64,000 nucleotides of DNA. Origin: Treponema sp. GTDB taxonomy: Bacteria > Spirochaetota > Spirochaetia > Treponematales > Treponemataceae. A program made the position numbers and the translations under genes. The stretch lies in NCBI GenBank assembly GCA_016287815.1, contig JAEEWW010000002.1, positions 18,234 to 82,233 of the forward strand. The letters run 5' to 3'. Positions 43,170 to 60,695 of this stretch are shown one piece after another (position 1 is the stretch's first letter; every line of letters starts with the position of its first letter). The notes under the pieces were generated by a model. That model saw only the letters and a program-made list of their open reading frames with translations, did not search any database and was not told the origin of the DNA.

Positions 43170-45215
43170 ATGGCTAACAAAGTTCAGATTTCAGAACTGG
43201 TATTGCGCGATGCTCACCAGTCACTTCATGCAACACGCATGACAACAGCAGATATGCTTCCAATCGCTTCAAAGCTCGATAAAATCGGTTATTTTGCAGC
43301 AGAAGCCTGGGGTGGAGCAACTTATGACAGTTGTATCCGCTTCTTGAACGAAGATCCGTGGGAACGCCTTCGCAAACTTCATGCAGCTATGCCGAATACA
43401 AAACTTATGATGCTTCTTCGTGGTCAGAACCTTTTAGGTTATCGCCACTACGCAGATGATGTTGTTGATAAGTTTGTTGAATATGCTGCAAAGAACGGAA
43501 TTGATGTTTTCCGTATTTTCGATGCCTGCAACGACCCGCGCAACCTTGAACGTGCTACAAAAGCTGCTAAAAAAACCGGCAAACATGTTCAGATGGCTAT
43601 TTCTTATGCCGTAACCCCATATCACACAATTGAAAAATATGCAGACCTTGCAAAAACTTATGCAGACTTTGGTGCAGATTCAATCTGTATTAAAGATATG
43701 TCTGGTTTGCTTAAACCATATGCTGCTTATGATTTGGTAAAAGCAATCAAAGCAAAAGTTGACCTTCCTGTAGAAATTCATACACATGCTACAACAGGTC
43801 TTTCTGTTGCAACATTGCTCAAATCTGCTGAAGCAGGTGCAGATATTCTTGATACAGCTATTTCTTCAATGGCTATGGGAACTTCTCATTCTCCAACAGA
43901 AACAGTTGTAGAAATGCTCAAAGGCACAGAATATGATACAGGCCTTGATATTTCTGCCCTTCTTGAAATTGCAGCTTACTTCCGCGAAGTTCGCAAACAC
44001 TATGCTTCCCTTGAATCAAAATTCCTTGGAGCTGATACACGTATCCTTAAATCACAGGTTCCGGGCGGTATGCTTTCTAACCTTGAAAGCCAGCTTAAAC
44101 AGCAGGGTGCTGCAGACAAGATGGATGACGTTCTTAAAGAACTTGAAGGAGTTCACAAGGATGTTGGTTATGTTCCTCTTGTTACACCAACTTCTCAGAT
44201 TGTTGGTACACAGGCAGTATTCAATGTATTGTTCGGCCGCTATGAACGTATGACAGGAGAATTCTGTGACCTTCTTACAGGTAAATACGGCAAACTTCCT
44301 GCTGAACCAAACAAAGACCTTGTTAAAAAAGCTCTTGAACAGAACAAGATGGAAGAAGCTATTACCTGCCGTCCTGCAGACAAGATTGCTCCGGAATGGG
44401 ACAAAATGGTTGCAGAAGCAAAAGAAAACGGCGGTAACGGTTCTGTAGAAGATGTTCTTACATATGCTATGTTCCCGAAAGTTGCAAAGAACTTCTTTGA
44501 AACACGTGCAAACGGTCCTGTTAATGCTGAAGAAAAATTCGGAATCAAAGAAGCTCCAAAGGCAGCTGCTAACGGCGCTTATACAGTTACAGTTAACGGA
44601 CAGGCTTATCAGGTTACAACAAACGGTTCTAACATCACTGTTGATGGAACTGCTTACAATGTAACATTCGGTGCAGCAGGTTCAGCTCCTGCAGCTGCTC
44701 CGGCTGCAACTGTTTCTGGCGGAGAAGATATTAAGGCTCCTGTTGCAGGTACATTGCTCAAACACGTTGTTCCGGCTGGTTCAAAAGTAACAAAAGGCCA
44801 GACAATCATCATGGTTGAATCTATGAAGATGGAACTTGAAGTTAAAGCTCCTTGCGACGGAACAGTAAATTACACAGTACAGCCTGGTACACAGATTACA
44901 GCCGGTATGGTACTTGGTAACATCGGCGGTGTTGTACAGGCAGCTCCAGTTGCAGCCGCTCCGGCAGCTCCTGCCGCTGCTCCGGCACCTGCAGCTTCAG
45001 CAGGCGGTAAGGCTGTAAATGCTCCTGTTGCAGGTACATTGCTTAAATATGTAGTTGCAGAAGGTGCTTCAGTTAAAGCTGATACAACAATCATTATGAT
45101 TGAATCAATGAAGATGGAACTTGAAATTAAGGCAGGAGCTGCCGGTTCAGTTCACTTTATCGTACCAACAGGAACTCAGGTAAATGCCGGACAGGCAGTT
45201 GCTGAAATTAAATAG
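43170..45215 (+). CDS. oadA: Oxaloacetate decarboxylase alpha subunit with two biotinyl domains
   Basis: [33 protein letters not shown]-like [15 protein letters not shown], two copies of ESMKMELE. Confidence 0.93.
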
Positions 45216-45225
45216 GAATATACTG

Positions 45226-46638
45226 ATGAATAGTTTGACAAACAAAAAAGGTACACAGGTTATGAAGGCCTGTCTGGTTCTTTTTGGAATTTCATTGGCT
45301 TTGTCTTTTGCAGGAACTGTCTTTGCTGCTGATTCAAATAGTCAGAGTGGAGTAGGTTCAAAAATTATCAAAGGCTCAGAAAATATCCCGGATGTTTCTG
45401 TTTCTAAGTTTTTGAAAAATATCGGTAAAAGTACCGGTATTTACAAAATCATTCATACAGAAACACCTGAAGAAGTAGCTCAGGCAAAGGCAGATGAAGA
45501 AGCAAAACTTGCTGCAGAAGCTTATGACCCGTTTGCAGGAATTATTGTTCCTGGCTGGCAGAAGCTTTTGATGATGGCTGTAGGTTTCCTCATCGTTTAC
45601 CTTGCCGTTGTAAAAGGTTTTGAACCTCTTCTTCTTATTCCGATTGGATTCGGTACAATTCTTGTAAACGTTCCTGGCGCCGGCATGGCCGATGCTCCTC
45701 ACGGAATGCTTCATATTATCTACAGCGCAGGTGTAGGAAACGAATTCTTCCCTATGCTTATCTTTATGGGAATCGGTGCAATGACAGACTTTGGTCCGCT
45801 TATTGCTAATCCGAAAACTGCATTGCTCGGCGGTGCTGCTCAGTTTGGTGTATTCTTTACATTGTTCGGTGTAGCACTTATGAACTTCATCCCTGGCGTT
45901 GACTACAACCTTAAACAGGCTTGTGCAATCGCAATCATCGGTGGTGCAGACGGTCCGACATCCATCTACGTTTCTGGTAAGCTTGCTCCGGAATTGATGG
46001 CTGTTATCGCTGTTGCAGCATATTCTTACATGGCTCTTGTACCGATGATTCAGCCTCCGATTATGAAGGCTCTTACAACTAAGAAAGAAAGAGCAATCAA
46101 AATGGCACAGGCTCGTCCTGTTTCTCAGATTGAAAAGACATTGTTCCCGTTGCTTTTGATTGTAATTACAGCATTGCTTTTACCGCCTGCAGCTCCTCTT
46201 ATCGGTATGCTTGCATTCGGTAACTTTGTAAAACAGTGCGGAGTTGTACAGCGTCTTTCCAAGACAATGGAAAACGAATTGATGAACATTGTTTCAATTC
46301 TTCTTTCTTTGGGCGTAGGTTCACAGATGACTCCGGAAAAGATTATCAACATGAACTCAATTGGTATCATCATCCTTGGTCTTGTAGCATTTGCCGTTGC
46401 AACAGCTTCAGGTCTTATGATGGCTAAGTTCATGAACCTTTTCCTTAAAGAAAAAATCAATCCGCTTATTGGTTCAGCAGGTGTTTCTGCCGTTCCAATG
46501 GCTGCCCGTGTTTCAAACAAGGTTGGTCAGGAATACGATCCTATGAACTTCCTTTTGATGCACGCTATGGGTCCGAATGTTTCAGGTGTTATCGGAACTG
46601 CAATTGCAGCCGGTGTATTCATCGCAACATTCGGTTAA
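45226..46638 (+). CDS. oadB: Sodium ion-translocating decarboxylase beta subunit
   Basis: [47 protein letters not shown]; likely ATG at 45226. Confidence 0.92.
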
Positions 46639-46669
46639 TTTCCGATTGAAAATGGTTTTCAATCGGAAA
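46639..46669 (+). other. Perfect hairpin immediately after the oadB stop codon
   Basis: TTTCCGATTGAAAA tgg TTTTCAATCGGAAA, 14-bp stem. Confidence 0.85.
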
Positions 46670-46670
46670 A

Positions 46671-46715
46671 ACGGCTGAGTCAAGGCTTTAAGCGAAGCGT
46701 GCCTTTACCAGCCGT
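46671..46715 (+). repeat. 45-nt hairpin element, copy A
   Basis: ACGGCTGAGTCAAGGCTTTAAGCGAAGCGTGCCTTTACCAGCCGT; 39/45 identical to the complement of 58825-58869. Confidence 0.9.
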
Positions 46716-46738
46716 ATAAGCCGCAGCCAAATAAAAAG

Positions 46739-46770
46739 AGACTGCCCGTTGGTTGGGCAGTCTTTTTTTT
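46739..46770 (+). terminator. Intrinsic terminator after oadB
   Basis: AGACTGCCC gttggtt GGGCAGTCT followed by a T run. Confidence 0.92.
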
Positions 46771-57537: not shown

Positions 57538-58809
57538 ATGCGTAAAAATAAAAACAAAGCAGTTTCAGTTTCTCTTGCATTTCGCTTTATGGCAATCCTT
57601 GCTTTTGCAATGCTCTGCCTTTCGTTCATTTTTGTCTTTGCGCTGCGCCTGCTGGTAATTAATCATCATAAGTCGGAACTCGAAACTTGTGTTTCGCATA
57701 TAGTTCGGACAATAAGCCTTGAAGGAACGCAGGAATTACCTTTTGTTGAACTTCCGTATTACATTACATATACGGTGTATGAAAGCGAATCAGAAAATGT
57801 TCTTTCTACAAATGACAGTCTGCTTCCTCTGCTGAATTCTTCTGGAAAAACAAAGACCTGCTTTGTAAAGGATTTTTTTACCGACAGTGACCTTAATATC
57901 CGCTATCTTACAAAAGAAACTGAAATATCCGGGAAAAAAATAATAGTTGAATGTGCACTGGATATTTCTAATGACACTGCAACGAAGATGTTAAAAACTC
58001 TTCCGTATCTTGCTTTAATTTTATTGCTTCCTGTGCTTTTAGTTTCATTTGTACTTTCTTATATGATTTCTAAAAGCACGATTTCAGCATTTAAAAAATT
58101 ACAGGCTGACTATGACCGGGAAAAAGAGTTTACTTCCAATGTAAGCCACGAACTGAAAACTCCGATTGCTATAATTTCAGGACACGCCAATCTTTTGAAA
58201 CGCTGGGGAAAAAACGACCCGATTCAGCTTGAAAAATCAATAGATTCTATTTTAAAAGAAAGCGAAAATATGAATCACATTGTAACTACCTTGCTTGATA
58301 TGAGCCGGCTGGAACGTGGAAAGATTGAAGTTGTAAAAACAAAGTTTTTTGCGACCAATTTTTTTGCAAAACTTAAAGAAGAATTTACTTCGCTTTATCC
58401 GCAGATGAAATTTGAAATTATAGATGAAGATTTTATTGAACTTTATACCGACGAGCAGAAGCTTCATCAGATATTTACGGTAATTTTATCTAACAGCGTA
58501 AAGTTTGCAGGAGAGAAGTGCAGAATAATTCTTTGTGCAAAAAGAAGTACCGTTAAGACTGGTGGTGTTAAATCTGGCGGTCAAATTGAACTTTCGGTAC
58601 AGGATAATGGAACTGGATTTGACGAAAAAATCCTTCCGCATGTATTTGAAAGGTTTTTCAAAGGCGACAGTTCGCATGACAGAAATGTTAGCGGCTCAGG
58701 GCTTGGCCTTGCAATTGCAAAATCCTTGACAGAATCTTTGGGCGGGTCTATAAAAGCAAAAAATGCCCCTCAGGGAGGGGCATTAATCAGCATTGCTATT
58801 TCAAATTAA
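57538..58809 (+). CDS. Sensor histidine kinase
   Basis: FTSNVSHELKTPIAIISGHANLL, VQDNGTGFDEKILPHVFERFFKGD, GSGLGLAIAKSL. Confidence 0.95.
   Translation: MRKNKNKAVSVSLAFRFMAILAFAMLCLSFIFVFALRLLVINHHKSELETCVSHIVRTISLEGTQELPFVELPYYITYTVYESESENVLSTNDSLLPLLNSSGKTKTCFVKDFFTDSDLNIRYLTKETEISGKKIIVECALDISNDTATKMLKTLPYLALILLLPVLLVSFVLSYMISKSTISAFKKLQADYDREKEFTSNVSHELKTPIAIISGHANLLKRWGKNDPIQLEKSIDSILKESENMNHIVTTLLDMSRLERGKIEVVKTKFFATNFFAKLKEEFTSLYPQMKFEIIDEDFIELYTDEQKLHQIFTVILSNSVKFAGEKCRIILCAKRSTVKTGGVKSGGQIELSVQDNGTGFDEKILPHVFERFFKGDSSHDRNVSGSGLGLAIAKSLTESLGGSIKAKNAPQGGALISIAISN
58762..58784 (-). terminator. Intrinsic terminator (minus strand) inside the 3' end of the histidine kinase ORF
   Basis: Minus strand: AATGCCCCT ccctg AGGGGCATT TTTT. 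Confidence 0.8.
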
Positions 58810-58825
58810 TCATTGATTTATCATA
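58796..58825 (-). repeat. Remnant duplicate of the gpmI 3' end
   Basis: Minus strand encodes YDKSMINLK-stop, as does gpmI at 58919-58948, with only synonymous differences. Confidence 0.85.
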
Positions 58826-58869
58826 CGAATGGTCAAGGCACGCTGCGCTTAAAGCCTTGACTCATTCGT
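58825..58869 (-). repeat. 45-nt hairpin element, copy B
   Basis: Minus strand ACGAATGAGTCAAGGCTTTAAGCGCAGCGTGCCTTGACCATTCGT. Confidence 0.9.
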
Positions 58870-58871
58870 TT

Positions 58872-58900
58872 AGCGGGGGTCTTAAAATAATACCCCCGCT
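58872..58900 (-). other. Perfect hairpin downstream of gpmI
   Basis: AGCGGGGGT...ACCCCCGCT, 9-bp stem. Confidence 0.8.
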
Positions 58901-58918
58901 ATAATCAGTTGGCGGAAC

Positions 58919-60583
58919 CTATTTTAAGTTAATCATTGATTTGTCGTAATCAGATGGAGCTACATAACCCATAAGGTTCATCAATGTTGCCGGCCAGCTT
59001 GAAATTCCAAGACCGTCGTTGAGTTTTGTATTGTCGTACTCGCCCTTGTATTCCGGGTCGTAGATAATACCTGGAACCGGGTTCAGTGAGTGCGAAGTTT
59101 TAGCCTTTGGCTCGCCGCTCTTGTCCATCTTAACGCTGCCGTCTTTTGCATGCTCGTACATGTCATCGCTGTTTCCGTGGTCAGCTGTAAGACACAGGAT
59201 ACCGCCTGCTTCATCGATTGCAGCCTTTAAGCGGCCAAGCTGTAAGTCCATGCCTTCCATAGAACATACAACAGCGTTAAAAACTCCTGTGTGTCCAACC
59301 ATGTCTCCGTTCGGGAAGTTAAGGCGGATGTGGTCATATTTGCCGGATTTAATTGCTTCAATAACTTTATCAGTGATTTCTGCACATTTCATCCATGGGC
59401 GCTGTTCAAATGGAACAACATCAGACGGAACTTCAACATAGTCTTCAAGTTTTTCGTCAAACTTACCCTGTTTGTTTCCGTTGAAGAAGTAGGTAACGTG
59501 TCCGTATTTCTGAGTTTCAGAAATGGCAAGAAGTTTAACGCCTGTTTTTGTAAGGTATTCACCCATTGTGCGGTCAATGCTCGGCGGGTTTACAAGATAC
59601 TGAGCCGGAACGTGAGCGTCTCCGTCGTATTCCATCATTCCTGCATATTCAACTGCCGGTACGCGCTTACGGTCAAACGGAAGTTCTCCGCCTTTTGGTG
59701 TTTCAAAGGCGCGTGTCATTTCAAGGGCGCGGTCGCCGCGGAAGTTAAAATAGATAACGCTGTCGCCGTCTTCAATAGTGCCGACAGGCTTTCCTGATTT
59801 TGCAATTACAAACTCGTGCATGTCCTGATCAAGAATGCCGGGGATTTCAGCGCGGTATGTTTCAATTGCCTTTGTAGCTGAATCAAACATGCGGCCTTCG
59901 CCAAGAACATGTGCTTTCCATCCGCGTTCTACCATAGACCAGTCTGCATTGTAGCGGTCCATAGTCATGTACATACGTCCGCCGCCTGAAGCAATCTGGT
60001 AGTCAACACCGGCAAAGCCTGCTAAGAATTCTTCAAGTGGAGTGATGTAATTTAAAGCAGAAGTAGGATCAACATCGCGGCCGTCAAGTAAAGCGTGAAC
60101 ACGAAGTTTTTTAACTCCGTCCTTAGAAGCCTGTGTAATCATTGCCTTAAGGTGGTCAATGTGGCTGTGAACGTTTCCGTCAGAAACAAGACCGATAAAG
60201 TGAAGGGTAGAGTTTTTGTCGTTTACGTTTTTAACAAGCTTTTTCCATGTGTCAGCTGCAAACATAGAACCGTTTGCAATTGATTCTCCAACAAGCTTTG
60301 CACCCTGAGCAAATACACGGCCACAGCCCATGGCGTTGTGGCCAACTTCACTGTTACCCATATCATCATCGCTTGGAAGACCAACGGCTGTTCCGTGTGC
60401 CTTTAATTTTGTATGAGGACAGTTAGCAGTAAACCAGTCCAGATACTTCATGCGGCTAGCTTTTACAGCATCGCCTTCTTCATATTTTCCATATCCAACG
60501 CCGTCCATAATAACAAGGACAACAGGACCACGACGACCTTTCCAGTTTGGATTCTTTTCCAAAGCGTGCATAGTGTCTGACAT
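58919..60583 (-). CDS. gpmI: 2,3-bisphosphoglycerate-independent phosphoglycerate mutase
   Basis: VVLVIMDGVGYGKYEEGDAV, DDMGNSEVGHNAMGCGRVFAQGAKLV, LTADHGNSDDMYEH; start MSDTMHALEKNPNW after AGGAG. Confidence 0.95.
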   Translation of the reverse strand: MSDTMHALEKNPNWKGRRGPVVLVIMDGVGYGKYEEGDAVKASRMKYLDWFTANCPHTKLKAHGTAVGLPSDDDMGNSEVGHNAMGCGRVFAQGAKLVGESIANGSMFAADTWKKLVKNVNDKNSTLHFIGLVSDGNVHSHIDHLKAMITQASKDGVKKLRVHALLDGRDVDPTSALNYITPLEEFLAGFAGVDYQIASGGGRMYMTMDRYNADWSMVERGWKAHVLGEGRMFDSATKAIETYRAEIPGILDQDMHEFVIAKSGKPVGTIEDGDSVIYFNFRGDRALEMTRAFETPKGGELPFDRKRVPAVEYAGMMEYDGDAHVPAQYLVNPPSIDRTMGEYLTKTGVKLLAISETQKYGHVTYFFNGNKQGKFDEKLEDYVEVPSDVVPFEQRPWMKCAEITDKVIEAIKSGKYDHIRLNFPNGDMVGHTGVFNAVVCSMEGMDLQLGRLKAAIDEAGGILCLTADHGNSDDMYEHAKDGSVKMDKSGEPKAKTSHSLNPVPGIIYDPEYKGEYDNTKLNDGLGISSWPATLMNLMGYVAPSDYDKSMINLK

Positions 60584-60695
60584 ATATACTCCTGAATTTG
60601 TCATTATCGTGCAGTAAAACATGCCCGGATAATGTTCTTAATATACTATTTCTTCTATTACTATAATGAATTACGGAAGGTTTTACAATGCGCAT

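Follow-up and report, generated by a model that had tools for sequence, protein, structure and literature searches.

A probably mobile two-hairpin element of gut and rumen Treponema that may also carry gene 3′ ends

Two similar hairpins follow the genes oadB and gpmI in the window, the 64,000-nucleotide stretch of Treponema DNA that was analysed. The locus raises the question of whether they belong to the transcripts of these genes or are copies of something that moves; the initial annotation had allowed for both, naming a structured 3′-UTR RNA and a mobile REP-like hairpin. We consider that they are very probably copies of a non-autonomous mobile two-hairpin element of gut and rumen Treponema, a view drawn from sequence comparison. 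Our best explanation as a whole, to which we give a probability of roughly two in three, is that this element sometimes also moves gene-end cassettes through a recombinase or transposase acting in trans.

The first copy follows an intact oadB, encoding the sodium ion-translocating decarboxylase subunit beta (45184–46638, plus strand; TIGR01109; the predicted start is that of the longest ORF). The second follows an intact gpmI, encoding 2,3-bisphosphoglycerate-independent phosphoglycerate mutase (58919–60622, minus strand; TIGR01307). The two 45-mers first described (46671–46715, and 58869–58825 on the minus strand) are indeed identical at 39 of 45 positions, with two compensated pairs in the outer stem among their differences, and the palindromes said to precede them and the terminators said to follow them are present. 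The 45-nt hairpin is thus real, but as an object it is too small, being the 3′ half of a 78-nt unit in which palindrome and hairpin are joined with exact ends (46640–46717, plus; 58900–58823, minus).

In the first copy the 29-nt palindrome, here called hp1 (46640–46668, plus), begins immediately 3′ of the AT behind the oadB stop codon; it is assigned from the sequence, from DNA and RNA folds and from exact junctions in other copies. The hairpin hp2 (46669–46717, plus) runs from AAACG to CGTAT with a bulged A and a GCGAAGC apex, includes the 45-mer and matches the covariance model at 4.1e-19. In the second copy hp1 is the 29-nt palindrome AGCGGGGG...CCCCCGCT (58872–58900, minus), assigned from sequence and fold, and hp2 (58823–58871, minus), with the other 45-mer inside it, matches at 9.3e-20. 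The core pattern has exactly two matches in the window and none in 100 dinucleotide shuffles. Compared with shuffled sequence, the two copies fold with z-scores of −8.2 and −10.3 as DNA and of −7.3 and −8.3 as RNA.

The intrinsic terminators, recognized from their sequence, lie outside the element: that of oadB 3′ of the unit (46739–46770, plus) and that of gpmI (58784–58762, minus) 3′ of a second gene end described below. Most other copies of the unit have no terminator at the position seen behind the oadB unit. At 58762–58809 the 3′ end of a convergent histidine kinase ORF (57538–58809, plus) overlaps the gpmI terminator and a portion of this second gene end.

Other copies share a single layout, in which AT is followed by hp1 and hp1 by AAACG-hp2-CGTAT, with hp1 starting right after the AT and stopping right before AAACG. 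The short form of the element measures about 73–80 bp (78 bp in both window copies). The base at −2 is A in 122 of 132 copies and that at −1 is T in 116 of 132. In hp1 the sequence is variable and the pairing conserved: the stem reaches at least 7 in 133 of 192 non-redundant copies compared with 2 of 192 shuffled ones, and 113 distinct stems occur. In hp2 the core is conserved and the foot is variable but covarying; a nearly invariant inner stem, GTCAAGGC paired with GCCTTGAC, carries a bulged A and an apex of GCGNAGC or GCGNNAGC. The sequence d(GCGNAGC) forms an unusually stable DNA hairpin. The apical part is enlarged by an extra small hairpin or a longer loop at nine loci (L006, L007, L008, L293, L307, L319, L340, L344 and L347), so that the tip of hp2 appears to be without length constraint.

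A covariance-model search, the check proposed at the outset, recovered units in 68 of 98 genomes of the genus, with one to at least 54 in each; up to 61 candidates per genome were scored with the model, and high copy numbers are lower bounds. This genome holds about 12, some ten of them beyond the window pair. The named hosts are gut and rumen Treponema, among them T. bryantii, T. porcinum, T. ruminis and strains JC4 and C6A8, together with many MAGs. A BLAST query found no unit in 15 sampled genomes from other genera of the same order. Among the phages, plasmids and viral contigs searched, one viral contig carries the hp2 core only and the remaining matches are weak and partial. In that contig (IMGVR_UViG_3300025146_000011 of IMG/VR; locus L262) the core GTCAAGGCTTTAAGCGAAGCGTGCCTTGAC lies within a different outer palindrome, ACCACCTG...CAGGTGGT. 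A literature search confined to open-access text found no description of this element.

The suggestion of a mobile, REP-like hairpin gains support from the dispersal of the copies, their exact junctions, empty sites, nesting and tandem copies. In one genome (G001) many units occupy a single fixed position of another repeat, 23 copies of which are empty at that point; the matching empty site reads GGCAATCTCTTGTAT/TGTAATTAAAT, with one mismatch allowed and the slash marking the junction. Two unit types share this insertion position and also occur as head-to-tail neighbours (L099, L118). Units are nested within a second repeat type in another genome (G107). Empty sites, nesting, the shared position and tandem units argue for insertion and against vertical evolution of a 3′-UTR. 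AT both precedes the unit and ends it, and a target duplication of 0–3 bp is indistinguishable from the terminal TAT.

The repeat that is entered in G001, GTCATTGCC...AATGAC (L098–L131), is itself palindromic and dispersed and looks like the CGTC-type REPs. The same genome contains three hybrid units (L101, L127 and L128) with mismatched arms from different unit types, which are probably deletions between tandem copies.

The surroundings of the gpmI unit suggest that more than the two hairpins may move. The 27 nt after the unit (58796–58822, minus) encode a second gpmI C-terminus, DKSMINLK and a stop codon, in the frame in which the unit's terminal TAT reads as Tyr. Over its nine codons this end shows three synonymous and no nonsynonymous differences from the functional one. 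Between the functional stop codon and the unit lie 18 nt (58901–58918, minus), the last 12 of which (CCAACTGATTAT) are similar to the gpmI codons that immediately precede the point of insertion (CCATCTGATTAC).

The arrangement recurs at xylB in two species, at pgi and at aspS, where the unit again lies inside a second, diverged gene 3′ end behind an intact gene. The order is in each case the gene with its stop codon, about 10–20 nt resembling the pre-insertion sequence, the unit and the second end. Only about 100–200 bp separate the two gene ends at such loci, and no integrase is encoded between them. All insertion points seen in the four genes are NAT/G codon boundaries. Synonymous and other codon differences in the other gene-end pairs number 7 and 4, 7 and 3, 14 and 8, and 9 and 1; since they are mainly synonymous, they suggest that the two ends were coding sequences evolving in different lineages. 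We had also considered an in-frame protein insertion of the kind made by Rickettsia palindromic elements, and dropped it, as the unit lies beyond the end of the intact gene and, at xylB and gpmI, stop codons interrupt the frame through the unit.

The clearest series comes from aspS; reading its 3′ ends in most of the sampled genomes of the genus gave 63 usable loci. A second C-terminus is present at 10 of 10 loci with a unit and at 1 of 53 without (p = 9e-11, not corrected for relatedness), the weakest of the ten scoring 49 against a shuffled maximum of 30. Three loci (L293, L347 and L310) have further C-terminal pieces, and arrays with two extra C-termini exist. The hp1 sequences are alike among aspS units, and likewise among xylB units. 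The units of two loci (L050 and L151) are almost alike, and the order of the two C-terminus types is reversed between these loci. The nearest relative matches the downstream C-terminus better than the gene-attached one at L347, L344 and L172; L151 shows the reverse, L331 and L307 show it slightly, and several loci tie. In this genome a decayed hp1 follows GATGGAT behind aspS (L343, on contig C115 of G000), which is likely to be the relic of a former cassette.

These features can be accommodated by a mechanism in which a recombinase or transposase supplied in trans would recognize the folded single strand. The right end would be set by hp2-CGTAT and the left end by an AT that usually abuts hp1. 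Sometimes, however, the AT used may be that of the homologous codon within the gene upstream, and a cassette of C-terminus, stop codon, short flank and unit would then move. Inserted at the same codon in the gene of another species, such a cassette would replace the functional C-terminus, push the native one downstream and leave the recipient with a working gene. That gene ends travel with the unit as cassettes has, in our judgement, slightly better than even odds. A single-strand chemistry of the peel-and-paste kind is put forward more tentatively. With similar reserve we propose a new class of mobile mini-element, built on a structure-recognized two-hairpin site that would move alone or with the 3′ end of a housekeeping gene, home to the same codon of orthologues in other species, replace the functional C-terminus there and build up arrays of spare C-termini.

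Two alternatives are unlikely in our view and still carry some weight. According to the first, the unit, a simple mobile repeat, is a bystander, and the second ends arose separately by homologous recombination with the DNA of related species or by tandem duplication from it. Most of the units examined carry no gene end, and for that reason homologous recombination may have given rise to the cassette form as a by-product; moreover, the spare ends resemble alleles from other species, and the swapped order at L050 and L151 fits recombination as well. Against this stand the near-exclusive presence of second aspS ends at loci with a unit, a junction that always falls exactly at the end of the unit and the recurrence of one layout at four unrelated genes.

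The second holds that the unit is a REP-type repeat moved by a RAYT or another Y1 transposase of the IS200/IS605 type, since lost from most genomes, hp1 being the hairpin of its left end and hp2 that of its right. Such a transposase would suit an element with a pair of hairpins and oriented ends that has no inverted terminal repeats and sits 3′ of a short motif. Units are present in all seven genomes with a RAYT-like Y1 protein of 250 aa and are more numerous there (p = 0.005 over 59 genomes, with no correction for relatedness); the protein resembles the NCBIfam family REP_Tyr_transpos, with a score below its cut-off. The link to RAYT suggested in the initial annotation nevertheless fails as a general explanation, as Y1 is absent from most of the high-copy genomes whose status is known (G001, G049, G059, G062, G064, G069 and G043). 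Our genome-wide work rests on searches and fetched regions, and many of the genomes are draft MAGs, so that the absence of a gene from any single genome is weak evidence. The flanking regions fetched for the Y1 genes examined contain no unit, the RAYT-like subset is not linked to units and the sequence of the left hairpin is not conserved. We regard this alternative as doubtful.

Comparison with known repeats points both ways. The REP and BIME sequences with their RAYTs (the GTAG and CGTC superfamilies) are, like the unit, short, imperfectly palindromic, dispersed between genes in many copies, sometimes in tandem, and variable in number between species; the unit therefore falls within the broad description of a REP as a short palindrome repeated many times at scattered extragenic sites. 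A RAYT gene flanked by the repeats, as in the GTAG type, was not found, and some REP superfamilies have no known transposase (PMC3733652, PMC2817692). The unpaired GTAG or CGTC tag is also absent from the unit, which ends in AAACG and CGTAT with a CGT/ACG pair in the foot and variable bases next to it. Further differences are the two unlike hairpins, one of them sequence-variable, the gene 3′ ends at some loci and the lack of a linked RAYT.

Palindrome-associated elements (PATE) and IS608-like ends derive from IS200/IS605, with a hairpin at each end and insertion 3′ of a short motif. The unit shares the paired hairpins, the placing 3′ of a short motif, the fixed orientation and the lack of inverted terminal repeats, but most high-copy genomes have no matching Y1 gene and its left hairpin varies in sequence. 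Five candidate systems (Y1/RAYT, TnpB, IntI, DUF3800 and IS110) were searched for across the genus, and none of them tracks the number of units. TnpB/Cas12f-like proteins gave strong matches in two genomes only. DUF3800, prompted by a sub-threshold Rfam match, showed no association, and no unit lies near its genes; IS110 is missing from many high-copy genomes.

The covariation noted between the two window copies proved real and strong across further copies. In an alignment of 87 distinct hp2 rows, fitted to the covariance model, 95.5% of cells pair and both sides have changed in 154 cells compared with 43.6 in shuffles; none of 500 shuffles matched the covariation score. An independent MAFFT alignment of 27 copies gave the same hp2 covariation on a smaller scale. 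Template switching during replication, a known mutational process at quasi-palindromes, would offer an explanation by arm-to-arm correction instead of structural selection, and hp1 stems that are so diverse and yet so well paired are what it would produce. We consider this improbable. The bulged A10 is kept in most copies and the adjacent foot positions (columns 6/46) fail to pair in 20 of 27, and correction from arm to arm would remove both; the apical GCGNAGC or GCGNNAGC is likewise retained.

More improbable again is an integron-like system, in which the unit would be a diverged attC and the C-terminus plus unit a gene cassette moved by IntI. The cassette-like order, the last-in-first arrays at aspS, a folded imperfect hairpin with an extrahelical base and the occurrence of IntI in 35 of 98 genomes of the genus are in its favour, and the chromosomal integrons of Treponema also have an imperfect hairpin at the cassette 3′ end and the newest cassette beside the insertion point (PMC3607928). 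However, the RYYYAAC and GTTRRRY boxes are absent from the unit and present in genuine attC sites of the genus (G056). The presence of IntI is unrelated to that of units (Fisher p = 0.36), and unit number is if anything lower with it (p = 0.11; neither value is corrected for relatedness); IntI is missing from G107, G089, G049, G064 and G013. In contrast to integron cassettes, the units have no attI or array platform, are scattered over the genome and have as cargo a gene fragment homologous to the target. The genuine array just mentioned (L272, at 675000–694999 of contig C1 in G056) belongs to a member of the genus without units. This genome has an integron integrase gene fragment with an internal TGA (1207–1488 of contig C147), and therefore a decayed integron.

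The position of the units relative to genes was counted with gene calls from a simple longest-ORF heuristic. Sites after stop codons are favoured, with 75 units in convergent gaps and 21 in divergent ones, as the view of the elements as 3′ features would predict; their orientation does not follow, for in gaps between codirectional genes 54 units run along the genes and 41 against them (p = 0.22; 192 non-redundant copies). Copies scattered irrespective of gene orientation and free of covariation had been taken in advance as the mark of a simple mobile repeat; the scatter and the nearly random orientation are there, but so is strong covariation. Despite the strongly conserved and covarying fold, the preference for sites after stop codons and the placing of both window copies between stop codon and terminator, a structured 3′-UTR RNA that would work in the upstream gene's transcripts as mRNA stabilizer, terminator partner or small RNA is very improbable, given the nearly even codirectional counts, the dispersal with empty sites, the occurrence of both orientations (including antisense at dnaK leaders) and the Rfam search, which gave no match at gathering score in the window and only sub-threshold matches around the units.

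The preferred reading, a mobile two-hairpin element with occasional gene-end cassettes, also invites comparison with systems that restore the gene they enter. The prophage e14 in icd is one such element. Others are Tn5253 in rbgA (PMC8571831) and SGI1 in trmE (PMC8409611). All three are of kilobase scale, carry an integrase and insert into a conserved housekeeping gene, where they use one fixed position in orthologues from several species and restore the frame with a brought-in or duplicated end. A second end of the target gene at the far junction, with the frame restored, is what we find at aspS, xylB, pgi and gpmI; the inserted DNA is here about 100–200 bp and has no further coding content. 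The prokaryotic MITEs, with Rickettsia palindromic elements among them (PMC10969869), are also non-autonomous, small and dispersed. The unit differs from them in having no flanking terminal inverted repeats and in not forming an in-frame protein insertion.

If the cassette model is true, a DNA element of less than 200 bp would enter essential genes harmlessly by supplying the gene end that it displaces, and core enzymes would have a route for exchanging C-termini between species. To our knowledge the strategy of supplying a gene end is otherwise confined to large integrase-encoding islands and prophages. The family is in any case a large natural set of variants for studies of structure-specific DNA recognition, with 87 distinct hp2 rows in one alignment. 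Even as a plain repeat it would account for a common repeat of gut Treponema that could mislead the prediction of terminators and small RNAs.

A last observation concerns dnaK. Upstream of this gene in two species (L051 in G023 and L059 in G010) an antisense unit has the dnaK ribosome-binding sequence in its loop. These loci led us to consider hp1 as a copy of the target sequence, an idea that was rejected as hp1 elsewhere is unlike the empty site. The arms of hp1 differ between the two species and yet pair within each, and the two units could form a folded dnaK leader.
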